Of a stretch of 64,000 nt of DNA, positions 1 to 64,000 are shown one piece after another (position 1 is the stretch's first letter; each line of letters begins with the position of its first letter). The translations under genes and the position numbers were made by a program. The stretch is taken from NCBI GenBank assembly GCA_964034945.1, contig OZ035962.1, positions 106,154,034 to 106,218,033 of the forward strand, read 5' to 3'. A model generated the notes under the pieces. That model did not search any database and was not told where the DNA came from. It was given only the letters and a program-made list of their open reading frames with translations. This stretch comes from Chrysopilus asiliformis (taxonomy: Eukaryota; Arthropoda; Insecta; Diptera; Rhagionidae).

Positions 1-110
1 TTCAGACGACGAATGTTTACTCAGGACAAGATACATGCGAAATTACATATGTTTAATGCGCAGATTGTTTTTCAATTCCAACACGAATAATTAAGGTGTA
101 AGACTAGAAC

Positions 111-123
111 CTATTCAATTTAT
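111..123. repeat. Left 13-bp target-site duplication of the Penelope composite
   Basis: CTATTCAATTTAT precedes the left end of the composite and is repeated exactly at 9688-9700 after the right end. The final T may belong to either the duplication or the element. Confidence 0.9.
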
Positions 124-241
124 GGTTCATTCGGGCTTAGCGGCCATGTAGTTATTAGTGAAGAATTATAAAAAACGGACTAATATAAATTAAAACACAA
201 TGGTTTCTTTTTTATCATCACGTTTTTTTATTTTCTTATCC

Positions 242-274
242 GACGTTTCGTCCAGAAATCCTGGACCTCATCAG
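242..274 (-). ncRNA. Hammerhead ribozyme core (left complete copy)
   Basis: On the minus strand: CTGATGA, then stem II GTCCAG/CTGGAC with a short loop, then GAAAC and GTC, the expected cleavage triplet. ACGT between GAA and C is self-complementary, as expected where stem III is tiny and forms between two ribozymes. Flanking TCC/GGA could start stem I. Hammerheads are known in Penelope-like elements. The downstream stem I pairing is weak by eye. Confidence 0.85.
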
Positions 275-598
275 GGAGTTTATTTCGATTTACTACAATT
301 TTATAAAAATGATAAAAACGTTATAATACGTATGTATGCACTTTTTACTGTTCAAAAATTACTTACATTTTATTCTTTGGAAAAAAGTTAGCTAACCTTC
401 TTAAAATTGTCACTGGTCTGTGTATTGTATTAATATGTCACGAAATTAAAATTGACTGAAGAATAACAATTGCATAAAAAACTTTCATTTTTGTTGTGCA
501 GGAAAGATCATAAAAACGATCAGCTGTTTCTCCAAACAAAAAAGGAAATACTTCTTGCGGGAAAAAACAGCTGGTTAGATATACCAACACAATCACGT

Positions 599-3166
599 CT
601 ATAATCTTTCGTCAGTCAAGTGTCTAGTCCTCTTTGTCATGTTATCGTCATCGGTATTCGTTCGTCTTCTTTTTTTGTAATTTCGCTCTTTCTCCTTGTC
701 TAGAAGCGCACAATATGATGAGTTAATACAATCCGTATCTCTCTTTTTATTGTATGTGTCTTCGGTGTATATGTGCAAGGCTTCGGCTGTTAATCGTTTG
801 AAATACTTTGATTCATATGTGAGGATCTGAGTATTATCAAAGTCCGGTTTGTGTCCTGTCTCTCTGACATGCTCAACCAAGGCTGTTGGTGCGAAAGGGT
901 TATTTTCTTTTTTTATGTCGTTCTTATGATTATTTATCCTTTTTTCCAATAACTGCTTTGTTTGACCAACATACGCTAGAGAACATTGCGATCCAATATT
1001 GTCATCTCCAAGACATGGAATTTTATATACAATATTGGACCTCTTGTTATAAGGTGTGGGAGCTTTCATTTTTGAAAAAACGTTCCGTAGTGTTTTTTTG
1101 TTTTTATATGCCACGCTCACACCTTTTGTATGTTCTTTCACCACTTTATTAATTTTCTCGCTTATACCTTCTATATAAGTGAGGCTTTTATAAGTTTTTT
1201 CCTCCCTTTTTTCCGTCTCAGGTGTAGTCGTTTTTACTTTATGCCAGTCAGCGATCGAACGATTGATTATCCGATTTGGGTAATTATTGCTTTTTAGAAT
1301 TTCTCTGATCTTTTTTATGTTCTGCTTATGAAATTCCTTCGAACTCAAATTAAACACCGTGCTAATAAATTGTCTAACCGTATTCATTTTTTGAGCCCTC
1401 GGATGTTGTGAATAAAAATTCAAGATCCGATTCGAGGCTATATCTTTATGAAACCAATCAGTGCTTATACTATTATCCTCATTCTTAATAATGATAACAT
1501 TGAGATAGGGTAACCTGTTGTTGTTTTCGATTTCTACTGTAAACTGAATCCTTGGGTTAAAATCGTTCAACATCCTTAGAGTACCTTCAACCTCTGGTTT
1601 GGGTATTATTCCAAAGAGATCATCAACATATTTAACCAAAAATCCAGGTTCGTAAGTCAGTTTAGATACACAACTATCCAGAAGGAATCTCATCACGATA
1701 TCAGCGATTACCCCAGACAACGGATTACCCATTGGCATCCCCGCCTTTTGTTTGTAGAAATGTTTGCCAAACTCGAAATAGTTGGAATCAACCAAACAAA
1801 AATGCAACATCTCAAAAAATAGATCTCTTGGAATGTTTGTATTCCTGCCTAATATATCCCACTTCTCATTTATGATTGACATCGCCAAATCTACGGGCAC
1901 GCTTGTGAATAGCGAGATTACATCAAAACTGACCATTATATCCTCCTCTCTAATGCTAACGTTATTAAGACGTTCTACAAAATCCGTCGCGTTTTTTATG
2001 TTGTATGGGTCGTCTATAGTAAGTGTTTTTAGAATTTCAGATATAAATTTCGATAAATTAGATGATGGAGTGTTAATAGAAGCAACGATTGGTCTCATCG
2101 GTATGTTGATTTTATGTGTTTTTGGTAGACAATATAGTTTAGGTGGTATCGCGTTGTAGATTGCGAGTTTAGATCTATTGTACGCGTTCAAGCATTCCTT
2201 GTCATATAACTTACGCACAAGGGCATTACTCCTATTTTGTAAGCTATTCGTGGGGTCGGAGTTCAATTTACAATAAGTATCACCATCGGAAAGCATCGCA
2301 TTAACCTTTTCATTATAACTCTTTTTTGACAGAATCACAGTTGATTTGCATTTGTCACTAGGTATAATGCAAAGTTCATCATGATCTCTTAAGAAATCTC
2401 TGGTGCGATTATATATAGATTCGATCGCAAAACTGACATGATCAGATGTGCTGTTTTTGTTTCTGGTATTACCGTTTTGAATAATGTTCGCGATTTTTGC
2501 TCTAGCAATGTCTTTAATTTTCGGATCTTTAATGGCTCTAACTATTTCTTCTACATCTGCGATCAGGTCAAAAAGAGGAAAATCTCGGTTATTTGGTCTT
2601 AAAGCAAATTTTGGTCCTAAGGACAATAACCATTTTATATCGTCAGGAATATGTATATCTGTCAGGTTTGTGAAACATTTTTCGTCCGTCTTTAAGTCCA
2701 GTTCTTTTAGAAAAATATTATATAGTTTATTAAATTTTATGTCTTTGTTTTTACGTTGATATTTTATTTGATCATCGTATGACCTTTTTTGTCTTGATAG
2801 AAAATCATCTGCCACATCTTCTGGTAAGATGTTTAGGATGTCTTCTTGTAATTCATAGAGTTTGTTTTGTTCTATGTTCGTTTTTATGCAACTGCTATCT
2901 ATAACGACATTAAGAATTTTTCTGTGACAATTTTTTAAAATCCTAGCTAGTTTTTCATTGTTACTAATGTTTAGATTTAGAGTTTTTTGAATAAATTTAG
3001 TAGTGTTAGCTATGAAATTAGGAACAAGTGCATACTTCCGACATTTTTGTAGAAACTCCTTTGTCGATTCCGCTTTTGTGGTCGAGGTGATCTGTTTCGT
3101 ATATTTTTTTAGCAGCTCTGCATTATCCGTCCCAAATTCGTTTTTTATCCAATTGTAGTATCCCAT
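599..3166 (-). CDS. Penelope reverse transcriptase with C-terminal GIY-YIG endonuclease (complete copy, left arm)
   Basis: An intact 855-codon frame starting at the ATG at 3166; an in-frame GTG five codons upstream is not a plausible eukaryotic start. Order: N-terminal Penelope region; reverse-transcriptase core with KTHK near residue 348, FDVISLF (motif A) near 413, GMPMGNPLS (motif B) near 475 and the catalytic YVDD near 512; then a GIY-YIG nuclease with VYKIPC near 711, AYVGQT near 731 and EHVRETGH near 764; then a lysine/arginine-rich tail. In this family the RT copies element RNA at a chromosomal break and the nuclease opens the target. Length and order fit Penelope of flies. No stop or frameshift is seen, so it could encode active protein. 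The ORFs antisense to it are shadows. Confidence 0.95.
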   Translation of the reverse strand: MGYYNWIKNEFGTDNAELLKKYTKQITSTTKAESTKEFLQKCRKYALVPNFIANTTKFIQKTLNLNISNNEKLARILKNCHRKILNVVIDSSCIKTNIEQNKLYELQEDILNILPEDVADDFLSRQKRSYDDQIKYQRKNKDIKFNKLYNIFLKELDLKTDEKCFTNLTDIHIPDDIKWLLSLGPKFALRPNNRDFPLFDLIADVEEIVRAIKDPKIKDIARAKIANIIQNGNTRNKNSTSDHVSFAIESIYNRTRDFLRDHDELCIIPSDKCKSTVILSKKSYNEKVNAMLSDGDTYCKLNSDPTNSLQNRSNALVRKLYDKECLNAYNRSKLAIYNAIPPKLYCLPKTHKINIPMRPIVASINTPSSNLSKFISEILKTLTIDDPYNIKNATDFVERLNNVSIREEDIMVSFDVISLFTSVPVDLAMSIINEKWDILGRNTNIPRDLFFEMLHFCLVDSNYFEFGKHFYKQKAGMPMGNPLSGVIADIVMRFLLDSCVSKLTYEPGFLVKYVDDLFGIIPKPEVEGTLRMLNDFNPRIQFTVEIENNNRLPYLNVIIIKNEDNSISTDWFHKDIASNRILNFYSQHPRAQKMNTVRQFISTVFNLSSKEFHKQNIKKIREILKSNNYPNRIINRSIADWHKVKTTTPETEKREEKTYKSLTYIEGISEKINKVVKEHTKGVSVAYKNKKTLRNVFSKMKAPTPYNKRSNIVYKIPCLGDDNIGSQCSLAYVGQTKQLLEKRINNHKNDIKKENNPFAPTALVEHVRETGHKPDFDNTQILTYESKYFKRLTAEALHIYTEDTYNKKRDTDCINSSYCALLDKEKERNYKKRRRTNTDDDNMTKRTRHLTDERL

Positions 3167-3351
3167 GTTGTTTATGCCCACAACTAATTTGTTAATAATG
3201 ATTCTTTTCGGCCGTATTATTTGTTGAATTCCTGGTTCATTCGGGCTTAGCGGCCATGTAGTTATTAGTGAAGAATTATAAAAAACGGACTAATATAAAT
3301 TAAAACACAATGGTTTCTTTTTTATCATCACGTTTTTTTATTTTCTTATCC

Positions 3352-3384
3352 GACGTTTCGTCCAGAAATCCTGGACCTCATCAG
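3352..3384 (-). ncRNA. Hammerhead ribozyme core (left truncated copy)
   Basis: The core is identical to that at 242-274 and lies 3110 nt upstream of it in element orientation. Cleavage at both would release an exact monomer RNA. Confidence 0.85.
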
Positions 3385-3708
3385 GGAGTTTATTTCGATT
3401 TACTACAATTTTATAAAAATGATAAAAACGTTATAATACGTATGTATGCACTTTTTACTGTTCAAAAATTACTTACATTTTATTCTTTGGAAAAAAGTTA
3501 GCTAACCTTCTTAAAATTGTCACTGGTCTGTGTATTGTATTAATATGTCACGAAATTAAAATTGACTGAAGAATAACAATTGCATAAAAAACTTTCATTT
3601 TTGTTGTGCAGGAAAGATCATAAAAACGATCAGCTGTTTCTCCAAACAAAAAAGGAAATACTTCTTGCGGGAAAAAACAGCTGGTTAGATATACCAACAC
3701 AATCACGT

Positions 3709-4880
3709 CTATAATCTTTCGTCAGTCAAGTGTCTAGTCCTCTTTGTCATGTTATCGTCATCGGTATTCGTTCGTCTTCTTTTTTTGTAATTTCGCTCTT
3801 TCTCCTTGTCTAGAAGCGCACAATATGATGAGTTAATACAATCCGTATCTCTCTTTTTATTGTATGTGTCTTCGGTGTATATGTGCAAGGCTTCGGCTGT
3901 TAATCGTTTGAAATACTTTGATTCATATGTGAGGATCTGAGTATTATCAAAGTCCGGTTTGTGTCCTGTCTCTCTGACATGCTCAACCAAGGCTGTTGGT
4001 GCGAAAGGGTTATTTTCTTTTTTTATGTCGTTCTTATGATTATTTATCCTTTTTTCCAATAACTGCTTTGTTTGACCAACATACGCTAGAGAACATTGCG
4101 ATCCAATATTGTCATCTCCAAGACATGGAATTTTATATACAATATTGGACCTCTTGTTATAAGGTGTGGGAGCTTTCATTTTTGAAAAAACGTTCCGTAG
4201 TGTTTTTTTGTTTTTATATGCCACGCTCACACCTTTTGTATGTTCTTTCACCACTTTATTAATTTTCTCGCTTATACCTTCTATATAAGTGAGGCTTTTA
4301 TAAGTTTTTTCCTCCCTTTTTTCCGTCTCAGGTGTAGTCGTTTTTACTTTATGCCAGTCAGCGATCGAACGATTGATTATCCGATTTGGGTAATTATTGC
4401 TTTTTAGAATTTCTCTGATCTTTTTTATGTTCTGCTTATGAAATTCCTTCGAACTCAAATTAAACACCGTGCTAATAAATTGTCTAACCGTATTCATTTT
4501 TTGAGCCCTCGGATGTTGTGAATAAAAATTCAAGATCCGATTCGAGGCTATATCTTTATGAAACCAATCAGTGCTTATACTATTATCCTCATTCTTAATA
4601 ATGATAACATTGAGATAGGGTAACCTGTTGTTGTTTTCGATTTCTACTGTAAACTGAATCCTTGGGTTAAAATCGTTCAACATCCTTAGAGTACCTTCAA
4701 CCTCTGGTTTGGGTATTATTCCAAAGAGATCATCAACATATTTAACCAAAAATCCAGGTTCGTAAGTCAGTTTAGATACACAACTATCCAGAAGGAATCT
4801 CATCACGATATCAGCGATTACCCCAGACAACGGATTACCCATTGGCATCCCCGCCTTTTGTTTGTAGAAATGTTTGCCAA
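3709..4880 (-). pseudogene. 5'-truncated Penelope copy, left arm (end of RT plus GIY-YIG)
   Basis: The reading frame begins inside the RT domain just before motif B and continues through YVDD and the GIY-YIG nuclease to the normal stop, identical to the complete copies. It lacks the first roughly 465 residues. The apparent ATG start at 4914 reads across the inversion junction and is artificial. Its 3' region (3196-3708) is the upstream pseudo-LTR of the complete minus-strand copy. Confidence 0.9.
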
Positions 4881-6063
4881 CTATTTCGAGTTTGGCAAAC
4901 ATTTCTACAAACAAAAGGCGGGGATGCCAATGGGTAATCCGTTGTCTGGGGTAATCGCTGATATCGTGATGAGATTCCTTCTGGATAGTTGTGTATCTAA
5001 ACTGACTTACGAACCTGGATTTTTGGTTAAATATGTTGATGATCTCTTTGGAATAATACCCAAACCAGAGGTTGAAGGTACTCTAAGGATGTTGAACGAT
5101 TTTAACCCAAGGATTCAGTTTACAGTAGAAATCGAAAACAACAACAGGTTACCCTATCTCAATGTTATCATTATTAAGAATGAGGATAATAGTATAAGCA
5201 CTGATTGGTTTCATAAAGATATAGCCTCGAATCGGATCTTGAATTTTTATTCACAACATCCGAGGGCTCAAAAAATGAATACGGTTAGACAATTTATTAG
5301 CACGGTGTTTAATTTGAGTTCGAAGGAATTTCATAAGCAGAACATAAAAAAGATCAGAGAAATTCTAAAAAGCAATAATTACCCAAATCGGATAATCAAT
5401 CGTTCGATCGCTGACTGGCATAAAGTAAAAACGACTACACCTGAGACGGAAAAAAGGGAGGAAAAAACTTATAAAAGCCTCACTTATATAGAAGGTATAA
5501 GCGAGAAAATTAATAAAGTGGTGAAAGAACATACAAAAGGTGTGAGCGTGGCATATAAAAACAAAAAAACACTACGGAACGTTTTTTCAAAAATGAAAGC
5601 TCCCACACCTTATAACAAGAGGTCCAATATTGTATATAAAATTCCATGTCTTGGAGATGACAATATTGGATCGCAATGTTCTCTAGCGTATGTTGGTCAA
5701 ACAAAGCAGTTATTGGAAAAAAGGATAAATAATCATAAGAACGACATAAAAAAAGAAAATAACCCTTTCGCACCAACAGCCTTGGTTGAGCATGTCAGAG
5801 AGACAGGACACAAACCGGACTTTGATAATACTCAGATCCTCACATATGAATCAAAGTATTTCAAACGATTAACAGCCGAAGCCTTGCACATATACACCGA
5901 AGACACATACAATAAAAAGAGAGATACGGATTGTATTAACTCATCATATTGTGCGCTTCTAGACAAGGAGAAAGAGCGAAATTACAAAAAAAGAAGACGA
6001 ACGAATACCGATGACGATAACATGACAAAGAGGACTAGACACTTGACTGACGAAAGATTATAG
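4877..6063 (+). pseudogene. 5'-truncated Penelope copy, right arm (end of RT plus GIY-YIG)
   Basis: This mirrors 3709-4880 and starts a few codons further 5', at the residues before FEFGKHF. The frame runs to the usual stop at 6063, followed by the 3' region with ribozyme and the 37-nt extension, then directly by the complete copy. Apparent initiation at 4858 is antisense sequence from the other arm. The two arms overlap by the four bases CCAA at 4877-4880. Confidence 0.9.
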
Positions 6064-6387
6064 ACGTGATTGTGTTGGTATATCTAACCAGCTGTTTTTT
6101 CCCGCAAGAAGTATTTCCTTTTTTGTTTGGAGAAACAGCTGATCGTTTTTATGATCTTTCCTGCACAACAAAAATGAAAGTTTTTTATGCAATTGTTATT
6201 CTTCAGTCAATTTTAATTTCGTGACATATTAATACAATACACAGACCAGTGACAATTTTAAGAAGGTTAGCTAACTTTTTTCCAAAGAATAAAATGTAAG
6301 TAATTTTTGAACAGTAAAAAGTGCATACATACGTATTATAACGTTTTTATCATTTTTATAAAATTGTAGTAAATCGAAATAAACTCC

Positions 6388-6420
6388 CTGATGAGGTCCA
6401 GGATTTCTGGACGAAACGTC
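6388..6420 (+). ncRNA. Hammerhead ribozyme core (right truncated copy)
   Basis: CTGATGA at 6388-6394, stem II GTCCAG/CTGGAC, GAAAC at 6413-6417 and cleavage triplet GTC at 6418-6420. It lies in the pseudo-LTR upstream of the complete plus-strand copy. Confidence 0.87.
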
Positions 6421-6606
6421 GGATAAGAAAATAAAAAAAACGTGATGATAAAAAAGAAACCATTGTGTTTTAATTTATATTAGTCCGTTTTTTATAATTC
6501 TTCACTAATAACTACATGGCCGCTAAGCCCGAATGAACCAGGAATTCAACAAATAATACGGCCGAAAAGAATCATTATTAACAAATTAGTTGTGGGCATA
6601 AACAAC

Positions 6607-9174
6607 ATGGGATACTACAATTGGATAAAAAACGAATTTGGGACGGATAATGCAGAGCTGCTAAAAAAATATACGAAACAGATCACCTCGACCACAAAAG
6701 CGGAATCGACAAAGGAGTTTCTACAAAAATGTCGGAAGTATGCACTTGTTCCTAATTTCATAGCTAACACTACTAAATTTATTCAAAAAACTCTAAATCT
6801 AAACATTAGTAACAATGAAAAACTAGCTAGGATTTTAAAAAATTGTCACAGAAAAATTCTTAATGTCGTTATAGATAGCAGTTGCATAAAAACGAACATA
6901 GAACAAAACAAACTCTATGAATTACAAGAAGACATCCTAAACATCTTACCAGAAGATGTGGCAGATGATTTTCTATCAAGACAAAAAAGGTCATACGATG
7001 ATCAAATAAAATATCAACGTAAAAACAAAGACATAAAATTTAATAAACTATATAATATTTTTCTAAAAGAACTGGACTTAAAGACGGACGAAAAATGTTT
7101 CACAAACCTGACAGATATACATATTCCTGACGATATAAAATGGTTATTGTCCTTAGGACCAAAATTTGCTTTAAGACCAAATAACCGAGATTTTCCTCTT
7201 TTTGACCTGATCGCAGATGTAGAAGAAATAGTTAGAGCCATTAAAGATCCGAAAATTAAAGACATTGCTAGAGCAAAAATCGCGAACATTATTCAAAACG
7301 GTAATACCAGAAACAAAAACAGCACATCTGATCATGTCAGTTTTGCGATCGAATCTATATATAATCGCACCAGAGATTTCTTAAGAGATCATGATGAACT
7401 TTGCATTATACCTAGTGACAAATGCAAATCAACTGTGATTCTGTCAAAAAAGAGTTATAATGAAAAGGTTAATGCGATGCTTTCCGATGGTGATACTTAT
7501 TGTAAATTGAACTCCGACCCCACGAATAGCTTACAAAATAGGAGTAATGCCCTTGTGCGTAAGTTATATGACAAGGAATGCTTGAACGCGTACAATAGAT
7601 CTAAACTCGCAATCTACAACGCGATACCACCTAAACTATATTGTCTACCAAAAACACATAAAATCAACATACCGATGAGACCAATCGTTGCTTCTATTAA
7701 CACTCCATCATCTAATTTATCGAAATTTATATCTGAAATTCTAAAAACACTTACTATAGACGACCCATACAACATAAAAAACGCGACGGATTTTGTAGAA
7801 CGTCTTAATAACGTTAGCATTAGAGAGGAGGATATAATGGTCAGTTTTGATGTAATCTCGCTATTCACAAGCGTGCCCGTAGATTTGGCGATGTCAATCA
7901 TAAATGAGAAGTGGGATATATTAGGCAGGAATACAAACATTCCAAGAGATCTATTTTTTGAGATGTTGCATTTTTGTTTGGTTGATTCCAACTATTTCGA
8001 GTTTGGCAAACATTTCTACAAACAAAAGGCGGGGATGCCAATGGGTAATCCGTTGTCTGGGGTAATCGCTGATATCGTGATGAGATTCCTTCTGGATAGT
8101 TGTGTATCTAAACTGACTTACGAACCTGGATTTTTGGTTAAATATGTTGATGATCTCTTTGGAATAATACCCAAACCAGAGGTTGAAGGTACTCTAAGGA
8201 TGTTGAACGATTTTAACCCAAGGATTCAGTTTACAGTAGAAATCGAAAACAACAACAGGTTACCCTATCTCAATGTTATCATTATTAAGAATGAGGATAA
8301 TAGTATAAGCACTGATTGGTTTCATAAAGATATAGCCTCGAATCGGATCTTGAATTTTTATTCACAACATCCGAGGGCTCAAAAAATGAATACGGTTAGA
8401 CAATTTATTAGCACGGTGTTTAATTTGAGTTCGAAGGAATTTCATAAGCAGAACATAAAAAAGATCAGAGAAATTCTAAAAAGCAATAATTACCCAAATC
8501 GGATAATCAATCGTTCGATCGCTGACTGGCATAAAGTAAAAACGACTACACCTGAGACGGAAAAAAGGGAGGAAAAAACTTATAAAAGCCTCACTTATAT
8601 AGAAGGTATAAGCGAGAAAATTAATAAAGTGGTGAAAGAACATACAAAAGGTGTGAGCGTGGCATATAAAAACAAAAAAACACTACGGAACGTTTTTTCA
8701 AAAATGAAAGCTCCCACACCTTATAACAAGAGGTCCAATATTGTATATAAAATTCCATGTCTTGGAGATGACAATATTGGATCGCAATGTTCTCTAGCGT
8801 ATGTTGGTCAAACAAAGCAGTTATTGGAAAAAAGGATAAATAATCATAAGAACGACATAAAAAAAGAAAATAACCCTTTCGCACCAACAGCCTTGGTTGA
8901 GCATGTCAGAGAGACAGGACACAAACCGGACTTTGATAATACTCAGATCCTCACATATGAATCAAAGTATTTCAAACGATTAACAGCCGAAGCCTTGCAC
9001 ATATACACCGAAGACACATACAATAAAAAGAGAGATACGGATTGTATTAACTCATCATATTGTGCGCTTCTAGACAAGGAGAAAGAGCGAAATTACAAAA
9101 AAAGAAGACGAACGAATACCGATGACGATAACATGACAAAGAGGACTAGACACTTGACTGACGAAAGATTATAG
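6607..9174 (+). CDS. Penelope reverse transcriptase with C-terminal GIY-YIG endonuclease (complete copy, right arm)
   Basis: This is the plus-strand twin of the frame at 599-3166, with an identical 855-residue translation from the ATG at 6607. The RT motifs lie at KTHK (about 7650), FDVISLF (about 7845), GMPMGNPLS (about 8032) and YVDD (about 8143). The GIY-YIG segment starts near 8740. The start follows a short leader that begins at the monomer junction (6578). The upstream truncated copy supplies the pseudo-LTR that in Penelope elements is thought to provide the promoter and ribozyme. The frame is open throughout. Two intact, identical frames in one insertion indicate a very recent event. 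Confidence 0.95.
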   Translation: MGYYNWIKNEFGTDNAELLKKYTKQITSTTKAESTKEFLQKCRKYALVPNFIANTTKFIQKTLNLNISNNEKLARILKNCHRKILNVVIDSSCIKTNIEQNKLYELQEDILNILPEDVADDFLSRQKRSYDDQIKYQRKNKDIKFNKLYNIFLKELDLKTDEKCFTNLTDIHIPDDIKWLLSLGPKFALRPNNRDFPLFDLIADVEEIVRAIKDPKIKDIARAKIANIIQNGNTRNKNSTSDHVSFAIESIYNRTRDFLRDHDELCIIPSDKCKSTVILSKKSYNEKVNAMLSDGDTYCKLNSDPTNSLQNRSNALVRKLYDKECLNAYNRSKLAIYNAIPPKLYCLPKTHKINIPMRPIVASINTPSSNLSKFISEILKTLTIDDPYNIKNATDFVERLNNVSIREEDIMVSFDVISLFTSVPVDLAMSIINEKWDILGRNTNIPRDLFFEMLHFCLVDSNYFEFGKHFYKQKAGMPMGNPLSGVIADIVMRFLLDSCVSKLTYEPGFLVKYVDDLFGIIPKPEVEGTLRMLNDFNPRIQFTVEIENNNRLPYLNVIIIKNEDNSISTDWFHKDIASNRILNFYSQHPRAQKMNTVRQFISTVFNLSSKEFHKQNIKKIREILKSNNYPNRIINRSIADWHKVKTTTPETEKREEKTYKSLTYIEGISEKINKVVKEHTKGVSVAYKNKKTLRNVFSKMKAPTPYNKRSNIVYKIPCLGDDNIGSQCSLAYVGQTKQLLEKRINNHKNDIKKENNPFAPTALVEHVRETGHKPDFDNTQILTYESKYFKRLTAEALHIYTEDTYNKKRDTDCINSSYCALLDKEKERNYKKRRRTNTDDDNMTKRTRHLTDERL

Positions 9175-9498
9175 ACGTGATTGTGTTGGTATATCTAACC
9201 AGCTGTTTTTTCCCGCAAGAAGTATTTCCTTTTTTGTTTGGAGAAACAGCTGATCGTTTTTATGATCTTTCCTGCACAACAAAAATGAAAGTTTTTTATG
9301 CAATTGTTATTCTTCAGTCAATTTTAATTTCGTGACATATTAATACAATACACAGACCAGTGACAATTTTAAGAAGGTTAGCTAACTTTTTTCCAAAGAA
9401 TAAAATGTAAGTAATTTTTGAACAGTAAAAAGTGCATACATACGTATTATAACGTTTTTATCATTTTTATAAAATTGTAGTAAATCGAAATAAACTCC

Positions 9499-9531
9499 CT
9501 GATGAGGTCCAGGATTTCTGGACGAAACGTC
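9499..9531 (+). ncRNA. Hammerhead ribozyme core (right complete copy)
   Basis: Same core as at 6388-6420, 3111 nt downstream, in the 3' region of the complete plus-strand copy. Confidence 0.87.
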
Positions 9532-9650
9532 GGATAAGAAAATAAAAAAACGTGATGATAAAAAAGAAACCATTGTGTTTTAATTTATATTAGTCCGTTT
9601 TTTATAATTCTTCACTAATAACTACATGGCCGCTAAGCCCGAATGAACCA

Positions 9651-9687
9651 GGAATTCAACAAATAATACGGCCGAAAAGAATCATTA
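9651..9687 (+). repeat. 37-nt terminal extension of Penelope
   Basis: It begins GGAATTCAAC and ends ATCATTA. The same 37 nt occur at both internal monomer junctions (6541-6577 plus, 3196-3232 minus) and at this outer end, but not at the left outer end (124). A similar short extension (about 34 bp) is described for Drosophila Penelope copies. Confidence 0.8.
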
Positions 9688-9700
9688 CTATTCAATTTAT
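9688..9700. repeat. Right 13-bp target-site duplication of the Penelope composite
   Basis: This is an exact copy of the 13 bp at 111-123, directly after the 37-nt terminal extension. The flanking DNA beyond it differs from the left flank, so this is not a mirrored assembly of one side. Confidence 0.9.
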
Positions 9701-10205
9701 TTCGATGCTCTCACTCGAAACTGATCATTAGAATTGGTCCTGGAGGTGTGCGCTTTTTCCTTTTCCGAATTTGCATAATTATAGGGTTCGAATTTTCGAA
9801 TGTCTACTCAACTGTGCGTGTGCTGGACCTCACGTCTGTTTTTTTTTTTCGGGATGCAGCGATAGTATTATTTAAACGCCATCCTCAATTTCGCTTCCAG
9901 TGTGCTAATAGCCACACAAATGACGGCGATTTCCGTCACGATAAATTTTCGCAAATTTATGATTGCTATATTTTCGGACTTTTTCGGTAATTTTCGGAGC
10001 AATTCAATGTCTTCCTAACCACATAATTTTTAAATCAAATTTGATGACAACAATAATTAATTATGGCGCGTTCAAGCCGTTAACAAATAAATGTAATTCG
10101 CATGTTTCAAGCACATATTGGACATATTTTGTATGAGTTTATTACATAGTTCTTTCTTTTTGGAAAGATCAACAAACAATCATTTTTGAAACTTGTAAAA
10201 CTATT
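9701..10205. other. Non-coding stretch between Penelope and hAT nest
   Basis: No supported gene. The short open frame at 9748-9990 has no recognisable domain. Confidence 0.5.
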
Positions 10206-11171
10206 GTCTAGACCAGGCCTGGGCACCATGTATGTAGTGATTTACAATTACTCGAAGAAATTTTATATTTCTTCATATACTATAACACAAAATGAGAAAA
10301 CGGATCTTTTTCATTTTTTACGCTCTTTCGCTTTTGATGGAGACGTTTAGGAACAGTGGACTACACAATTTATCATGATGCGATTACAAAAAAATAATAA
10401 GTTCCGTCGTGCAAAAAAACTTGTGGGGACGTATTTCCGGTTCTGTGCTTCGAAAAAACATGCGCTAAATTGCATTATGTTATCTGATAGGACAGCTGTT
10501 GTAATGGCGTTCTATATTGAATTTTTTATTCGACATGTAACTGCAAACTAGACATTGACGGTTATCATTATTTGTGGTTATTAAATATTTGTTTTCCCAA
10601 TCACACGGAAGTGGCCGTCGTCTACCAACCAGGGTTGGGACTTTAGTACATATGTACTAGATCTAGTACCTATTTGACTCATTTAGTACCCTAGTAAATA
10701 CCAGAGCCCATGAATCTGGTACCTTTTCATGGTTTATATAAAAAATGATTTTATCTGAATTTATAGCTCCCTTTAAAAAGCTATCACTTTTCTATGTATT
10801 AGAAAAAAAAGTACTTTTTTAAATGATCCCTTACAACTCTTTAATTAAAGACTAATGAATTCGTGTTATTAAGGGAGATATGAAAATCAATCGTAGGCCA
10901 TGGAAATATGATTTATATTAGCAATAGCTCAAAATAATTCTCGAAATTTAAGTTTTTAGATGGAGTTTATACAAAAATTTAAAATTGAAATAAAAGCAAA
11001 AATTTAAAACAAATACATCTAGACAATTTTTATTGATTTTTTGGCGTTTTTCTAGAGTATTTTTTGACCGAAACGGTTATATTTACAACGCAAAAGTCAA
11101 TCCATATGGGTTAAGGATTTTTTTCTCTAAAATTACGAGATTTAGATTTTTCTTGACTTCTATGTAATAAG

Positions 11172-12312
11172 CAGGGCCCGGATATTTAAGGCAAAAAGGC
11201 ATTTTGCCTATTTTGCTTTTTTCGTTCATTTTTGTATAATAACTGCCTTTTAGGCATTTTTGCTTATTTTCCCACTTTTTCGACCATTTAGCCTTTTTTT
11301 AATGCCTTTTTTAATAATTCCGATCTTAAAAAGATTTATAAATTCCTTTTAGGGTAATTTAAGTACCCATAAAAATTATCATTATTTTTTTTTTTGATTT
11401 GGCAATGCCTATATTTATGACAGTTGCGCCAATGTACGATCAGTTTAGTTTTGATAGTAAATTGAAATCTTAGAAATGCCAAAAATCACACGAGAAAACC
11501 GCCTTATACTCGTGAGCCTTGTAAATACATTTGGTAAAGACTGTTTCTCGACAGACGGGAGTTTGCTTTTCTGCAAAATGTGCGAAAAAGTAGTGAATCA
11601 TTCAAAAAAGTATTTTGTAACACAACACATAAAAATTGCCATACACAAGAATTTATTGCAGAAAGCAAGTTCAAAAAAAGTCGGGTTATTCAAAAATGCA
11701 ATCAGCAGAAGAAGCGACTCACAATTTTTTAGAGATTTATGTATGGCATTTGTTAAAGCAAATATTCCACTTTGGAAATTGAATAATTATATTTTGAAAG
11801 AGTTTTTTTCAAAAATATTGCCATGAAAAAATTCCAGATGAATCAACGTTACGAAAGAATTGGAAACCTGCTATTTAGAAACAATTTCGGGGATTAGAAA
11901 AGAACTTTTAGGTAAGTTTTATTAGTTCACTTAATTATTTCTTGCAATCAGTATTAGATCCGTATTACCTATTATGATTCTTAATGCACCTAAAGTAACG
12001 TCACTATAACAAGTTGTAGGTAAAAAGTAGCGAACACTTATATTACTTAAATGAAGTGAGGGTCTTTATACGGCTATTAGCTTTTTATATATTTTTTTAA
12101 ATTTATTTATATGAATTTAATTTATCTGAAATTTTTTGCAAGCGTTCTGCGTTCAATTTTGTGATACATGATATGTCATATTCGTGCAATGAAAATGCCT
12201 TTTGTTTAAATAAATGCCTTTTTTTTGAAAAATTAATGCTTATTCAGTCTTTTATACTGCCTTTTTGCCTGCCTTTTTTCCCATTTTATAAGTGCCTTAA
12301 ATCCGGGCCCTA
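11172..12312. mobile_element. Innermost hAT-type transposon with coding relic
   Basis: The ends CAGGGCCCGGAT and, read inward from the right, TAGGGCCCGGAT are followed by TTAAGGCA on both sides. GTAATAAG is duplicated at 11164-11171 and 12313-12320. Subterminal regions are full of GGCATTTT/AAAAGGC motifs. At 1141 bp it is a deletion derivative that keeps the first part of a coding region. Confidence 0.9.
11476..11878 (+). pseudogene. hAT-associated CGGBP1/BED-like zinc-finger protein, broken
   Basis: The frame from 11476 has a C-x2-C...H-x4-H type finger (CKMCEKV, then QHIKIAIH) followed by a segment of the type AFVKANIPLWKLNN. This matches the N-terminal part of CGGBP1-like proteins derived from hAT transposases. 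After about residue 112 the frame shifts in a run of A (near 11812-11816). The expected continuation, with IPDESTLRKN, resumes in another frame and hits a stop at 11876-11878. The catalytic transposase part is absent. The conserved parts on both sides of the single shift show a formerly real gene. Family assignment is by motif memory. Confidence 0.7.
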
Positions 12313-14841: not shown

Positions 14842-17800
14842 ATTTTTACTTTCTTCTACGGAGTATAATAAAGTATTGTATTCATGAAAAATTTCGACCT
14901 CTTAATTTTGCCTAAAAAACATTTCCCGATCACTCCTGAGTCGATTGGAGCCATATTTAAAAAATGGCTTTCTGTCTGTCAGTCTGTCAGTCTGTCAGTC
15001 TGTCAGTCTGTCAGTCTGTCAGTCTGTCAGTCTGTCGGTCTGTCAGTCTGTCAGTCTGTCAGTCTGTCAGTCTGTCAGTCTGTCAGTCTGTCAGTCTGTC
15101 AGTCTGTCAGTCTGTCAGTCTGTCAGTCTGTCAGTCTGTCAGTCTGTCAGTCTGTCAGTCTGTCAGTCTGTCAGTCTGTCAGTCTGTCAGTCTGTCAGTC
15201 TGTCAGTCTGTCAGTCTGTCAGTCTGTCAGTCTGTCAGTCTGTCAGTCTGTCAGTCTGTCAGTCTGTCAGTCTGTCAGTCTGTCAGTCTGTCAGTCTGTC
15301 AGTCTGTCAGTCTGTCAGTCTGTCAGTCTGTCAGTCTGTCAGTCTGTCAGTCTGTCAGTCTGTCAGTCTGTCAGTCTGTCAGTCTGTCAGTCTGTCAGTC
15401 TGTCAGTCTGTCAGTCTGTCAGTCTGTCAGTCTGTCAGTCTGTCAGTCTGTCAGTCTGTCAGTCTGTCAGTCTGTCAGTCTGTCAGTCTGTCAGTCTGTC
15501 AGTCTGTCAGTCTGTCAGTCTGTCAGTCTGTCAGTCTGTCAGTCTGTCAGTCTGTCAGTCTGTCAGTCTGTCAGTCTGTCAGTCTGTCAGTCTGTCAGTC
15601 TGTCAGTCTGTCAGTCTGTCAGTCTGTCAGTCTGTCAGTCTGTCAGTCTGTCAGTCTGTCAGTCTGTCAGTCTGTCAGTCTGTCAGTCTGTCAGTCTGTC
15701 AGTCTGTCAGTCTGTCAGTCTGTCAGTCTGTCAGTCTGTCAGTCTGTCAGTCTGTCAGTCTGTCAGTCTGTCAGTCTGTCAGTCTGTCAGTCTGTCAGTC
15801 TGTCAGTCTGTCAGTCTGTCAGTCTGTCAGTCTGTCAGTCTGTCAGTCTGTCAGTCTGTCAGTCTGTCAGTCTGTCAGTCTGTCAGTCTGTCAGTCTGTC
15901 AGTCTGTCAGTCTGTCAGTCTGTCAGTCTGTCAGTCTGTCAGTCTGTCAGTCTGTCAGTCTGTCAGTCTGTCAGTCTGTCAGTCTGTCAGTCTGTCAGTC
16001 TGTCAGTCTGTCAGTCTGTCAGTCTGTCAGTCTGTCAGTCTGTCAGTCTGTCAGTCTGTCAGTCTGTCAGTCTGTCAGTCTGTCAGTCTGTCAGTCTGTC
16101 AGTCTGTCAGTCTGTCAGTCTGTCAGTCTGTCAGTCTGTCAGTCTGTCAGTCTGTCAGTCTGTCAGTCTGTCAGTCTGTCAGTCTGTCAGTCTGTCAGTC
16201 TGTCAGTCTGTCAGTCTGTCAGTCTGTCAGTCTGTCAGTCTGTCAGTCTGTCAGTCTGTCAGTCTGTCAGTCTGTCAGTCTGTCAGTCTGTCAGTCTGTC
16301 AGTCTGTCAGTCTGTCAGTCTGTCAGTCTGTCAGTCTGTCAGTCTGTCAGTCTGTCAGTCTGTCAGTCTGTCAGTCTGTCAGTCTGTCAGTCTGTCAGTC
16401 TGTCAGTCTGTCAGTCTGTCAGTCTGTCAGTCTGTCAGTCTGTCAGTCTGTCAGTCTGTCAGTCTGTCAGTCTGTCAGTCTGTCAGTCTGTCAGTCTGTC
16501 AGTCTGTCAGTCTGTCAGTCTGTCAGTCTGTCAGTCTGTCAGTCTGTCAGTCTGTCAGTCTGTCAGTCTGTCAGTCTGTCAGTCTGTCAGTCTGTCAGTC
16601 TGTCAGTCTGTCAGTCTGTCAGTCTGTCAGTCTGTCAGTCTGTCAGTCTGTCAGTCTGTCAGTCTGTCAGTCTGTCAGTCTGTCAGTCTGTCAGTCTGTC
16701 AGTCTGTCAGTCTGTCAGTCTGTCAGTCTGTCAGTCTGTCAGTCTGTCAGTCTGTCAGTCTGTCAGTCTGTCAGTCTGTCAGTCTGTCAGTCTGTCAGTC
16801 TGTCAGTCTGTCAGTCTGTCAGTCTGTCAGTCTGTCAGTCTGTCAGTCTGTCAGTCTGTCAGTCTGTCAGTCTGTCAGTCTGTCAGTCTGTCAGTCTGTC
16901 AGTCTGTCAGTCTGTCAGTCTGTCAGTCTGTCAGTCTGTCAGTCTGTCAGTCTGTCAGTCTGTCAGTCTGTCAGTCTGTCAGTCTGTCAGTCTGTCAGTC
17001 TGTCAGTCTGTCAGTCTGTCAGTCTGTCAGTCTGTCAGTCTGTCAGTCTGTCAGTCTGTCAGTCTGTCAGTCTGTCAGTCTGTCAGTCTGTCAGTCTGTC
17101 AGTCTGTCAGTCTGTCAGTCTGTCAGTCTGTCAGTCTGTCAGTCTGTCAGTCTGTCAGTCTGTCAGTCTGTCAGTCTGTCAGTCTGTCAGTCTGTCAGTC
17201 TGTCAGTCTGTCAGTCTGTCAGTCTGTCAGTCTGTCAGTCTGTCAGTCTGTCAGTCTGTCAGTCTGTCAGTCTGTCAGTCTGTCAGTCTGTCAGTCTGTC
17301 AGTCTGTCAGTCTGTCAGTCTGTCAGTCTGTCAGTCTGTCAGTCTGTCAGTCTGTCAGTCTGTCAGTCTGTCAGTCTGTCAGTCTGTCAGTCTGTCAGTC
17401 TGTCAGTCTGTCAGTCTGTCAGTCTGTCAGTCTGTCAGTCTGTCAGTCTGTCTGTCTGTCAGTCTGTCAGTCTGTCAGTCTGTCAGTCTGTCAGTCTGTC
17501 AGTCTGTCAGTCTGTCTGTCAGTCTGTGTACAAGATTTCTCAAAAACTAATAGAGCTAGCGCCATGAAATTTTATAGGCATGTTGGGTCCTGAAATGGGA
17601 CGATCCTATCAACTTTTGGTGGAAATCCGTTAACCGGAAGTATCCAAAATGGCGGTTTTTCAAAAATCGCAATTTCGTTTTTCTCGATTTACTCCCAAAC
17701 TACGCGTTTTTTAGTGGCCTTAAGTATGACAAAACTTGGAGAAAATAAAATTTCCCACACTTTTGTCTTTCGCTATAACTCGATATCTCAACCTGTTATC

Positions 17801-20750: not shown

Positions 20751-20768
20751 TTTAGGATACAGTAGGAA

Positions 20769-20871
20769 AGGAGGTTCGCATCATGTAGAGGGGAGTGGTT
20801 TGAGTGGGCGAAAAGTTTCCTTCATTTTTCGCCCACTCAAACCACTCCCCTCTACATGATGCGAACCTCCT
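20769..20871. repeat. Perfect 46-bp inverted repeat with 11-nt loop
   Basis: Arms 20769-20814 and 20826-20871 are exact reverse complements around GTTTCCTTCAT. This may be one end of a larger element that includes the minisatellite 150 bp downstream. Confidence 0.93.
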
Positions 20872-21020
20872 CTCTTGCTGAGCCGACCTGTCCAACATTG
20901 AACTGACCTGTTCAACACTGAAACCCGTTTTCATTACAGTCGAAGGGATAAAAGGGGAGCCCATACCACATCTAACTATAAACCACGCTCATGACGCATA
21001 GAACACATAAATAAATTTTT

Positions 21021-22489: not shown

Positions 22490-22918
22490 AGGGGTGGCTT
22501 CACTTATTTTCGATCGACCGTATAGTTAAAGGATATCTTTAGTCGATCAAAAATTATTACACAGGCTGGCACTCCTTCTGGTATACACTAGGAGTCGATT
22601 CTCAGCAATTTGGGGTCGCTGAATCGGAATTTGGCCATGGTTTGGCTAGATCAGTCCTACTTTTTGAGAAATATAGCAAAGAATGTTGATTTCCAAATTA
22701 TAAATATTTACACTAATTTATGCGTCACCCTTCATACCTGAAAAAGTAGAACTGGTACTGCGAAACTACCAATCCAGATTCAGCGGCCCAAGTTACCCAG
22801 AAAAGACTCCTTTATCGTGTGCATCAGAATAAGTGTAGGCCTGTGTAATAATATTTGATCAACTAAAGATTTCCTTCGACTAATCAGTCGATCGAAAATA
22901 AGTTACATGAAGCCACCT
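22490..22918. mobile_element. Fold-back MITE family C, copy 1
   Basis: Long imperfect inverted arms of about 190 bp start AGGGGTGGCTTCA and end with its near complement. CAGT occurs on both sides (22486-22489 and 22919-22922) and may be a 4-bp target duplication. It is the older, more diverged of two copies; the other is at 52685-53122. Confidence 0.8.
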
Positions 22919-24571: not shown

Positions 24572-25355
24572 CGATTTAACATAGATTTTATAATTGTGAT
24601 AGTTTGTAAATCATTATGTAAAATTTTGTATTCGAAAAAAGTAAAACAATAATTGTGGAAAATTACATTTTCATTTGGAATTTTTAACCGCATTGGCGAA
24701 GTCAAGAACAAAATTCTAAGATATGGAGGACACGAAAATATTTCGCAAAAAATATACGGAATTAATCAATTCAAAATCAAATAACAAATTCAAAATTAAT
24801 TGTTATTAGATGAATAATTTATAAATAAATCTCTTATCGTAAGCAAAGAAGTAAATTGTATTTAGTTCAATTAATTTTATGAAAAATAAAAATTTTAAAA
24901 TGTAAGTAAAGCAAAAAATCAGAAAAAAGAATACAAAAAATTAAAATATTATTCCAATTCGTGACTTTAAAATTAAAATAATTGAGAAAGTAGGGATAAG
25001 TGGCTCGAATGATAAAGATATGTATCTTCATACCTAAGATTTGTATAAATAAAAGAAAATTCTCATTTCAAATTATAAAAAAATCAAATTAAACAAAAAA
25101 AAAAAACAATTAGTTTAGAAAAAGTAGTGAAAATTAATATAAATATACCTAATATATTTAATTTTCTTTCTATTTTGTTTAACAAATTAATTAATTGAAG
25201 ATCGTTTTTAAATACAATTTCAATTTAGAAGTTGTTGATTTTTGTACTGTCTCATGATTTCAAGCATTAATATTCGACACACTCTTATATAAGTATTTAC
25301 TGTTAAAATAAAACTATAAAAATAAATTATATAAAAACTCAAAAAATGTTTAAAT
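24572..25355 (+). repeat. 785-bp AT-rich repeat D, copy 1
   Basis: This matches the reverse complement of 56859-57646 over almost its full length with few differences. Neither copy has an open frame, inverted ends or a clear target duplication. Beyond both edges the sequences diverge. Confidence 0.85.
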
Positions 25356-25359
25356 ATTG

Positions 25360-49546: not shown

Positions 49547-50843
49547 CAGTAGAGACTCGGTAATTCGAAAACCCCGCTAATTCGAACAACAATTTTTACT
49601 TTCTTCTACGGAGTATAATAAAGTTTTGTATTCATGAAAAATTTCGACCTCTTAATTTTGCCTAAAAAACATTTCCTGATCACTCCTGAGTCGATTGGAG
49701 CCATATTTAAAAAATGTCTTTCTGTCTGTCAGTCTGTCTGGCAGTCTGTGTACAAGATTTCTCAAAAACTAATAGAGCTAGCGCCATGAAATTTTAGAGG
49801 CATGTTGGGTCCTGAAATGGGACGATCCTATCAACTTTTGGTGGAAATCCGTTAACCGGAAGTATCCAAAATGGCGGTTTTTCAAAAATCGCAATTTCGT
49901 TTTTCTCGATTTACTCCCAAACTACGCGTTTTTTAGTGGCCTTAAGTATGACAAAACTTGGAGAAAATAAAATTTCCCACACTTTTGTCGTTAGCTATAA
50001 CTCGATATCTCAACCCGTTATCGAGATAAACCGTTATTTCCAAAAAAAAAACAGTTTTTTGCGATTATCTCGAAAACTAACGGGTTTTTGTTGACTGAAT
50101 GTATGAAGTGAATTAATGACACAATTTTGTCTTTTACCGTTATCCGTTATATTTTACCGTTATTGAGATATTTGCATTAATATGTAAAAAATCATATTTT
50201 TGCGAATAATTTGCAAACTAACGGTTTTTCGACAAATCAGTTAAAATAATAATTAAAGATGTTAGCATTTTCTACATTTTTGCCATTTACCGTAAATTGA
50301 TATCTTTTACAGTTCTCAAGTTATCTCAAATTTTGTACGTTTTTGATATTTTTGAATAAACAAAGAATTTATTGGGAGGCCGTCTTAGGTTGACAACGCG
50401 ACAGGGCTCTAGCGTAAATTGCGCAGGGTCGTAGATTTTGTAGAAGAAAGTTTTGTGTTGACCACAACTGATATTTTTTATTGGGTATCTTGTAATTCAA
50501 ATTGTGGTCGATATATTGGTCTCCGTAATCGAACTTTTCTGGTCGAGCATGGAAATGGATTGAATACAATGCTAAGGCATTTACCAGCAAAATTTGCGTG
50601 GTGGTATGTACAGGCATTAATTTTGAAGCCAAAATTTCAAGAATTGAATGTGGTCACATATGTAGGTATATATGCTTGGGGGACATTGTTACTTAATTTT
50701 AATTTCAAATTTTTCTCTTCTGACATTAAGACTGTTTTATTAATCAAAATGTGCACCATAAAATTGAATCCAGTAATTCGAAAATCTCCGTGGTTCGAAT
50801 TAAGGTCCGGTTTCTATTGATTCGAATTACCGAATCTCTACTG
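49547..50843. mobile_element. pogo/Tigger-like element interrupted by repeat A
   Basis: Ends CAGTAGAGACTCGGTAATTC and, read inward from the right, CAGTAGAGATTCGGTAATTC, each flanked by TA (49545-49546, 50844-50845). Repeat family A copy 2 sits inside, so the original is about 410 bp and non-autonomous. The 133-codon frame at 50419-50820 spans the repeat border and is fortuitous. Confidence 0.85.
49592..50479 (+). mobile_element. Dispersed repeat family A, copy 2 (unexpanded)
   Basis: Nearly identical to the flanks of 14842-18272, but with only about three GTCTGTCA-type units (about 49723-49750). This copy shows the ancestral structure. Confidence 0.82.
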
Positions 50844-52480: not shown

Positions 52481-52684
52481 ACACACCGGAAAATTGAGAA
52501 CAAGCTAATTACAAGGGAAAATCCTAGCCAAAAATTAGGTTCTAGGTTTCTCGCTTTCAAAAATTCGAACTGGTGATCCACCATTCAGTAGATCGGGCTA
52601 AAATTGTAGCTAATATCTTTTGGAGAAAAGGGTCAGAGGAAATTTAAAAAATTGCCACAATTACGGTGTCTTCCTTGCCAGACC

Positions 52685-53122
52685 AGGGGTGGCTTCATGT
52701 AACTTATTTTCGCTCGACTAATTGGTCGAAGGAAATCTTTCGTCGACTAAAACTGATTAAACAGGAGGACACTCACTCTGGTGCAGACGATATAAGAGTC
52801 TTTTCTGGGTAATTTGGGGTCGCTGAATCCGAATCTGGCAGTGGTTTGGCTGTACCAGCTCTACTTTTTCAAATATGAAGAAAAAAATAATTGTTGATTT
52901 CCAGATTATAAATATGTATGAGTTACCCACCATATCGGAAAAAGTAGAGCTGGTACAGCCAAACCACTGCCAGATTCGGATTCAGCGACCCCAAATTACC
53001 CAGAAAAGACTCTTATATCGTGTGCACCAGAGTGAGTGTCCTCCTGTTTAATCAGTTTTGGTCGACGAAAGATTTCCTTCGACCAATTAGTCGATCGAAA
53101 ATAAGTTACATGAAGCCACCCC
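52685..53122. mobile_element. Fold-back MITE family C, copy 2
   Basis: Arms of about 190 bp are nearly perfect inverted repeats starting AGGGGTGGCTTCATGTAACT, around a short AT-rich centre. It is better preserved than copy 1 (22490-22918). Confidence 0.88.
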
Positions 53123-53124
53123 AG

Positions 53125-56100: not shown

Positions 56101-56858
56101 GAACCACACAAATATATCTCCTTCAGATGCGTTGCGTTCACTGAATATCCTTTTTTTTAATGTAGAACTGCGAATCGCTATGCTCTCTCTCTTGTTTTCC
56201 TATGTTGGACTATTTTCTGCTTAGTTTTATATTGCGGCAGACTCCTAATAATTTAATTTAGTGTAATTCGAAGCACGAATTCGTAATTTTGCATGGCCAA
56301 AAAAATCCGCCAAATTGAAAACAAAGAGACTTTTCTTGTTTATGAAAACTCTGGCTACAGGAAAACAAACACAATTCAGGATAAAATCGTAGTTATCGCC
56401 GTTCAATGTGTTAAAACTGATTCGATTAGATTCGTTCCTTCACTTTTCACTTTGCGTTCCTGTTTTCAGTCGAAATTCTGAATAGAACTGAGAAAACTAG
56501 CTTCGAGGGCAACGCTTTTGAATTTCCGTCGCAGCAAAGCTATCTGCTCTAATTGAATTATCCGCCGCTCGATTAAGACTAAAATAACGAAAAAACTTTC
56601 TCACAAATCACAATCATTTTATGCTTTTTTCGTGTAGCTTCTTCTTGTTTTGATGGAATTCCCACCACGATTTTCCCAAAATCTTTTCTTATCCATGACC
56701 ACACCGAAGCATTGGAGTTTGAAGGGGTTTGATTTGGACGCCGCGGTTTAAAAAGGAACTAGAAAAGGTGTGGCGCCGTGGCTAAAAAAGGAACTTTTCC
56801 GTTTACAAACAACATGGCGCCGCGCGTGGCCGAAAAGGAAACATTTGAACATTTAAAA
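53125..56858. other. Non-coding stretch
   Basis: Near 53485-53530 a minus-strand patch (GTCCAAGTGGTAAAG, GTTCAATTCCCGGC) is tRNA-like but scrambled. Short frames at 53946-54607 and 56293-56481 match nothing known. Confidence 0.35.
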
Positions 56859-57646
56859 ATTTAAACATTTTCTGAGTTTTTATATAATTTATTTTTATAG
56901 TTTTATTTTAACAGTAAATACTTATATAAGAGTGTGTCGAATATTAATGCTTGAAATCATGAGACAGTACAAAAATCAACAACTTCTAAATTGAAATTGT
57001 ATTTAAAAACGATCTTTCAATTAATTAATTTGTTAAACAAAATAGAAAGAAAATTAAATATATTATATTTATATTAATTTTCACTACTTTTTCTAAACTA
57101 ATTGTTTTTTTTTTTTTGGTTTAATTTGATTTTTTTATAATTTGAAATGAGAATTTTCTTTTATTTATACAAATCTTAGGTATGAAGATACATATCTTTA
57201 TAATTCGAGCCACTTATCCCTACTTTCTCAATTATTTTAATTTTAAAGTCACGAATTGGAATAATATTTTAATTTTTTGTATTCTTTTTTCTGATTTTTT
57301 GCTTTACTTACATTTTAAAATTTTTATTTTTCATAAAATTAATTGAACTAAATACAATTTACTTCTTTGCTTACGATAAGAGATTTATTTATAAATTATT
57401 CATCTAATAACAATTAATTTTGAATTTGTTATTTGATTTTGAATTGATTAATTCCGTATGTTTTTTTGCGAAATATTTTCGTATCCTTTGATAAGATATG
57501 GAATTTTGTTCTTGACTTCGCCAATGCGGTTAAAAATTCCAAATGAAAATGTAATTTTCCACAATTATTGTTTTACTTTTTTCGAATACAAAATTTTACA
57601 TAATGATTTACAAACTATCACAATTATAAAATTTATGTTAAAATCA
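56859..57646 (-). repeat. 785-bp AT-rich repeat D, copy 2 (inverted)
   Basis: Reverse complement of 24572-25355 with few differences. Both copies lie within about 60 bp of a GGCGCC on the same relative side, but the intervening bases differ. Confidence 0.85.
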
Positions 57647-59851: not shown

Positions 59852-60097
59852 TTACCAGGGCACCAATGATGTATTCCGACGCGTCTCTGTCTTTCGACTT
59901 CGACGCAGCTTTTAACTCTTGACTTCGCCATATCAGCAGCTTCAAATTTCCTGGATTGACAGTCAGAATCACGTTTCGATTCATAGTGACGATTCCGCGA
60001 AATTTCAAGCTGTAGATATGGTGAAGTCAAGAGTTAAAAGCTGCGTCGAAGTCGAAAGACAGAGACGCGTCGGAATACATGATTGGTGCCCAGGTAA
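59852..60097. mobile_element. 246-bp fold-back MITE
   Basis: Arms of about 85 bp begin TTACCAGGGCACCAATGATG and pair with the right end with few mismatches. The two frames that cross it in opposite directions (59689-60030, 59919-60143) have the same peptide segment because of the palindrome, not because they are genes. Confidence 0.88.
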
Positions 60098-63832: not shown

Positions 63833-64000
63833 CTGTAAAAAATTGGACAAATTAGTTAAGATTTTGTGATATCGAGTGATTATTTTTTGTGTTGAGTGTC
63901 CGTAAAATACATTGCACTTTAAGGTAGGAGAAGAGGTTTGGGGTATTTTAATGGTGTTGCACTATCCTAAAATCTCGAAAAAACCGAGTAGAAGGCCAAG

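Follow-up and report, generated by a model that had tools for sequence, protein, structure and literature searches.

How can one insertion of a retroelement show the element's 3' end at both of its outer boundaries? The question is raised by a locus of the fly Chrysopilus asiliformis (contig OZ035962.1), where the 64-kb window that we analyzed, i.e., the whole stretch of 64,000 nucleotides, carries two head-to-head arms of a Penelope-like element across positions 111 to 9700 (Table 1). The insertion measures 9,564 bp and is bracketed by a 13-bp target duplication, CTATTCAATTTAT, the two copies of which are the sole exact matches to this sequence when both strands of the window are searched. 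At the window's base composition, the chance of a 13-base match is about 5e-8 per pair of sites. A sequence-only reading of the same DNA had proposed a single 13-bp duplication around 9.56 kb, opposite arms each made of a partial and a complete copy, and element 3' ends at both outer boundaries; the duplication was found as described, and an alignment of the two arms bore out the rest. These data support the insertion of the two arms as one unit in one event.

Table 1. Coordinates of the features of the head-to-head Penelope-like insertion within the window
Feature	Position	Strand	Remarks
Left target-site duplication, CTATTCAATTTAT	111-123		Exact match to 9688-9700
Left arm	124-4880	-	4,757 nt; 5'-truncated plus complete unit
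Left arm, complete Penelope unit	124-3233	-	3,110 bp; tail-less outer end; identical to 6540-9649
Open reading frame of left complete unit	599-3181	-	860 amino acids from GTG; longer if putative intron is spliced
Left arm, 5'-truncated unit	3234-4880	-	1,647 bp
Inverted junction (CCAA, 11-nt spacer, TTGG)	4877-4895	+	CCAA (4877-4880) common to both arms
Right arm	4877-9687	+	4,811 nt; 5'-truncated plus complete unit
Right arm, 5'-truncated unit	4877-6539	+	Extra A in homopolymer near 6434
Hammerhead-ribozyme-like core, likely start codon (ATG 6391) and proposed exon 1	6388-6417	+	Judged by eye
Putative intron, kept in the insertion	6418-6483	+	66 nt; by eye, from frame and GT...AG ends
Right arm, complete Penelope unit	6540-9649	+	3,110 bp
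Open reading frame as listed, with reverse transcriptase and GIY-YIG-type endonuclease region	6592-9174	+	860 amino acids from GTG
Tail	9650-9687	+	38 nt; right outer end only
Right target-site duplication, CTATTCAATTTAT	9688-9700		Exact match to 111-123

The two arms are nearly the same molecule in opposite orientations. The complete units are identical at 3,110/3,110 positions, and the arm-against-arm alignment comprises 4,757 identities, no mismatches, and one internal 1-nt gap. This gap, the sole difference between the aligned arms, reflects a run of eight A residues in the right inner copy near 6434 versus seven in the other three copies. Both arms are partial tandems (n = 2) with a period of 3,110 bp, which the extra A lengthens to 3,111 bp on the right. 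The right arm extends beyond the left on either side, by 15 nt inward and by 38 nt outward. An outer extension confined to the right had thus been correctly recognized in the sequence-only reading, but its length is 38 nt rather than the 37 nt given there, which would hold if the final T of the left duplication were assigned to the element. No further pieces of the element were found in the window outside 111-9700 (blastn with 6540-9687, E 1e-3), nor did we recover any DNA relative of it in the plasmid collection, in the genome_contigs collection (43 pattern stretches), or in the viral_contigs collection (37 stretches).

Judged from its sequence, the element is an endonuclease-containing Penelope-like element of the Penelope/Poseidon type. 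The 860-amino-acid open reading frame (ORF), uninterrupted in the left and the right complete unit, gave a hit to RVT_1, the Pfam model of reverse transcriptases, with an E value of 4.9e-7, barely above the cut-off (30.1 versus 29.6 bits), and contains the active-site motif YVDD, with Y518 to D521 conserved in the alignment of its relatives. A PDB search with a 13-sequence profile gave weak matches to reverse transcriptases of the group II intron type (best E, 3.6e-4) and to telomerase reverse transcriptases (E, 0.045). Among 7,997 candidate proteins scored, 81 were homologous at an E value of 1e-3 or better, the best of them being 48% identical, and these relatives include a Drosophila virilis protein (P0019, labeled only "uncharacterized protein") with 38% identity over 96%. 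The Pfam GIY-YIG model did not report the protein even at an E value of 10, and it also missed P0019 of D. virilis. The endonuclease region was recognized by alignment only: the segment from residue 719 onward aligns with the Pfam GIY-YIG stretches of three relatives (P0046, P0047, and P0060), and Y719, Y737, G739, R748, and H752 are conserved in 6/6 rows of the alignment of this region. The insertion itself shows the hallmarks of Penelope-type elements, i.e., the 13-bp duplication, inverted pseudo-long terminal repeat (pLTR) ends, and a 38-nt tail on one end.

Upstream of the listed ORF lies a short motif that resembles the core of a hammerhead ribozyme, judged by eye from a 6-bp stem with an ATG inside it; it recurs at 9499 (+), 245 (-), and 3355 (-). 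Rfam gave no match at gathering score in positions 1-12000 and hence reported no hammerhead there; at a relaxed threshold, the segment 6340-6620 again gave no hammerhead but a single snoRNA match of 16.7 bits, which we took as chance given its gathering score of 80. Minimal hammerhead forms without helix III are described for such elements in the available part of one report (PMC7761336). The likely start codon within the core is followed by a putative intron, the left-arm counterpart of which is one A shorter (65 nt); its removal would yield a 905-amino-acid frame, and its retention in the inserted copies would imply that the template RNA was unspliced. The predicted layout of this region, with the ATG inside a hammerhead-like core and then a putative intron, fits the published Penelope/Poseidon plan. 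Relative to this ATG, and with the proposed intron discounted, the outer ends of the insertion lie 83 and 121 nt downstream. A 5-bp GGCCG/CGGCC stem was predicted around the start at the tail-less end, but we gave it no weight because 179/200 shuffles of the region folded at least as well (z, +1.24).

The inner ends of the arms map to element positions 7988 and 8003 (coordinates of the right complete copy), only 15 nt apart, so that the center of the insertion is a palindrome with an 11-nt spacer. The junction falls in the middle of the ORF, where we would not expect an RNA to have its 5' end. When independent complementary DNA (cDNA) ends were simulated, an offset of 15 nt or less occurred in 0.5 to 1.0% of random pairs (for spans of 3,110, 4,757, and 6,220 nt). 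With chance coincidence this infrequent, either a shared template end or fold-back copying has to be added to any account of the locus: copying of the two arms probably halted at a single template end, or else one of them served, through fold-back, as the template of the other. If up to 15 nt are trimmed, a 4-nt join would be possible at 46% of shared end positions. An exact 4-bp fold-back hairpin with a loop of 3 to 11 nt would be possible at 5% of end positions if untrimmed and at 15% with loops of 3 to 30 nt, the figure rising to 46% if up to 15 nt were trimmed first. With 46% for trimmed joining and 46% for trimmed fold-back, such a count of availability cannot choose between the two models. 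The hairpin at the cDNA end is weak, with -1.1 kcal/mol in a 30-nt context, and is not the minimum-energy fold in 50 nt; 93/200 and 123/200 shuffles, respectively, folded at least as well (z, 0.39 and 0.07), and a strong hairpin was thus not seen at this end. The geometry that fold-back predicts, CCAA and TTGG separated by 11 nt with both the loop and the tail on the right arm, is present, which makes the junction compatible with that model without proving it.

Considering these data together, we favor two-sided priming from one template end over fold-back and give it roughly an even chance; this and the other probabilities of formation models given here in words are our judgements, not computed values. 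A Penelope-like ribonucleoprotein would cleave the two strands of an AT-rich site with a 13-nt stagger, and each of the resulting 3' ends would prime reverse transcription of a tandem element RNA, on the right from the start site that includes the tail and on the left from the one that omits it, located 38 nt further in. The two cDNAs would run to the same RNA 5' end in mid-ORF, be it that of one broken RNA or a single stop. Joining of their 3' ends through CCAA/TTGG would cost the left cDNA 15 nt, and fill-in would yield the 13-bp duplication. The sequence directly shows the anatomy, the identity of the arms, the duplication, and the junction; from these we infer the two priming events, the shared template end, and the microhomology joining. 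PAc, the purified enzyme of a Poseidon element from the lizard Anolis carolinensis, cuts and extends both strands in vitro, apparently with the same choice of start site on each, and it starts at two adjacent sites inside the RNA, the tail being the stretch between them; its commonest start lies 111 to 118 nt into the ORF, and Penelope tails range from 30 to 40 bp (PMC11167929), with the present 38 nt inside this range. That the difference between our outer ends equals the length of a tail, together with the extension of both strands by the lizard enzyme, makes two-sided priming credible. The spacing of the outer ends hence fits the published start sites well, and their position in the ORF does so loosely, the tail end lying 121 nt after the ATG with the intron discounted. 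In addition, no base has been lost from the left target end, which has no more than 1 nt in common with the element; this is what one would expect had the left 3' end primed synthesis. Spacing, loose positional fit, and intact left target end all favor priming from both sides. In a more specific version, the locus would be the genomic counterpart of the PAc reaction: a single Penelope complex would have employed the two 3' ends left by one staggered break, pairing each with its own reverse transcription start site, and would have made two copies of one RNA that reach the same 5' end. Symmetric, two-sided integration, rather than self-priming, would then ordinarily give rise to head-to-head structures. 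We put this forward tentatively, with a little less than even confidence.

Several points weigh against two-sided priming. As the inner ends are only 15 nt apart, the shared template end is an added assumption, and the 46% of positions at which trimmed joining could occur is matched by the same value for trimmed fold-back. The loop (the inner 15 nt) and the tail are both on the right arm, an arrangement that fold-back demands and that two-sided priming would give half the time. Counting the intron, as for an unspliced template, places the outer ends 149 and 187 nt downstream of the ATG rather than near 111 to 118, and the start sites of the present element are themselves deduced from the ends of one insertion. 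Finally, the authors of the study on the rotifer Adineta vaga, in the portion of the text available, prefer self-priming for head-to-head junctions (PMC3846280).

Fold-back self-priming is the alternative to be taken most seriously, even if we regard it as rather unlikely. Here, the right end alone would have primed a cDNA whose 3' TTGG folded onto CCAA 11 nt away, copied itself into the left arm, stopped 38 nt short of the primer, and joined the left target end. The exact CCAA-11 nt-TTGG geometry and the near identity of the arms agree with this, as does the right arm being longer at both ends, which the model demands, and the 15-nt inner offset would follow automatically. Among the available excerpts, those on yeast describe fold-back inversions with stems down to 4 bp, albeit with 4-bp stems rarer than longer ones (PMC7467729), and those on A. 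vaga attribute palindromes at head-to-head Penelope junctions to self-priming, of a kind that involves an antisense template rather than a folded-back cDNA (PMC3846280). Against this stand the weak hairpin (-1.1 kcal/mol), the scarcity of end positions that offer an exact one (5% with loops of 3 to 11 nt, 15% with loops of 3 to 30 nt, and 46% only with trimming), and the left end stopping at the tail boundary, for which a special reason would be needed. Nor does fold-back give a reason why, as we read the available A. vaga text, the published inverted arm ends at the pLTR 3' end while the other arm runs on through the ORF (PMC3846280). The eight versus seven A residues would require a second slip or a later change, but we gave this difference little weight because it may just as well stem from an error in sequencing or from a change after insertion.

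The remaining accounts appear far less probable. That two independent RNAs were copied from both sides into cDNAs of independent length which met by end joining, the plain version put forward in the sequence-only reading, is very unlikely: it shares the outer-end evidence with two-sided priming from one template end, and the both-sided priming that it proposed is credible, in line with the in vitro behavior of PAc; its chance meeting of the cDNAs is not supported, since inner ends within 15 nt are expected in 0.5 to 1.0% of pairs. We attach the same slight probability to an assembly or library artefact, in which a fold-back read or a repeat misassembly would have made a simpler insertion palindromic. 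Perfect long inverted repeats are a weak spot of assemblies, and the one difference between the arms sits in a homopolymer. However, the flanks differ, on the left an inverted end of the element abuts an intact duplication, and a mirror would be expected to copy the tail and the right flank as well; the earlier argument against an assembly mirror, from differing flanks and unequal ends, holds in that the flanks do differ and the tail is on the right only. Least probable in our view is a two-step origin, by which an ordinary insertion with a short inverted pLTR was later lengthened by break repair or arm conversion, or an already head-to-head source RNA was copied. The identity of the arms is high enough for recent conversion, but extra steps would be required and we saw no trace of an older junction.

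Other features of the window lie apart from the insertion. Positions 14974-17524 hold an array of about 319 copies of GTCTGTCA, with 99% matches, inside a repeated element; the other copy of this element, at 49592-50479, has flanks that are 95% identical and just a few GTCTGTCA units, which suggests an expansion of roughly 2.5 kb in the array copy. A 0.79-kb repeat is present twice in inverted orientation, with 97% identity and about 31 kb between the copies (24575-25358 and 56856-57642), and four segments (52682-53126, 59852-60097, 22493-22917, and 20760-20880) are self-complementary, with 69 to 90% between arms, and resemble miniature inverted-repeat transposable elements or fold-back elements. 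An exon on the minus strand at 63207-63833 resembles psq-domain (jim-lovell-like) proteins, its highest-scoring named relatives being from Anopheles (66 to 70% over the whole length); with a Drosophila miranda jim-lovell-like protein, it shares 94% over 42%. Judged from this one exon, the host appears to be a dipteran.

The mode by which Penelope-like elements integrate is unsettled, the enzyme study pointing to internal starts and extension of both strands and the genome study deducing self-priming from inverted junctions. In the literature found on Penelope together with twin priming, inversion, or second-strand synthesis, both-sided integration is not stated in the titles and abstracts. With its long near-identical arms, sharp outer ends, and mid-ORF junction, the present locus allows the two models to be told apart by plain counts in a copy-rich genome, the informative ones being which arm carries the tail, the distance between the inner ends, and the position of the second outer end.

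L1 twin priming yields a single 3' end per RNA, and the 5' piece of a single cDNA becomes inverted without duplication. Our locus shares with it two presumed priming events at one break and the inversion, but here both arms are whole, carry the same sequence, and end outward in element 3' ends; we thus rejected an origin of the L1 type, in agreement with the earlier contention that the architecture is unlike it. Yeast fold-back inversions, as far as the available text describes them, also have an inverted junction with a short stem and a short loop but arise at chromosomal breaks, not at element insertions (PMC7467729). The likeness to the lizard PAc extends to two reverse transcription start sites close to the beginning of the ORF and separated by the tail (deduced here from insertion ends), a preference for AT-rich DNA, and, probably, an ORF start within a motif that here is hammerhead-like; the PAc work differs in being in vitro, and its main text describes no product that joins both target ends (PMC11167929). 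With Drosophila virilis Penelope, the likeness is at the level of the protein relative P0019; a partial-tandem copy from that species was active once moved to D. melanogaster (cited in the available part of PMC3846280). The closest structural parallels come from the A. vaga text, within the part available (PMC3846280). A typical Pen2a_Av copy has an inverted pLTR beside direct ones, a 9-bp target duplication, and, optionally on one inverted pLTR, a 31-bp tail; Pen2_Av also has partial tandem units, and two families tend to form long tandem and inverted structures. A curation guide, in the portion available, names inverted pLTRs and 3' extensions among the peculiarities seen in single copies. 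The layout is hence already known in kind and is not supported as new, as inverted 3' ends, an optional single tail, and a single target duplication are published as typical of Penelope (PMC3846280, available part). The inverted arm in A. vaga is one 181-bp pLTR with the junction at the pLTR, and the pLTR ends 12 amino acids into the ORF, or 22 with the tail (same excerpt), whereas the ends here lie 83 and 121 nt into the proposed spliced ORF and the inverted arm spans 4.76 kb with a complete unit. What is unusual in the present insertion is the length of its arms, their near symmetry, and the position of the junction in mid-ORF.

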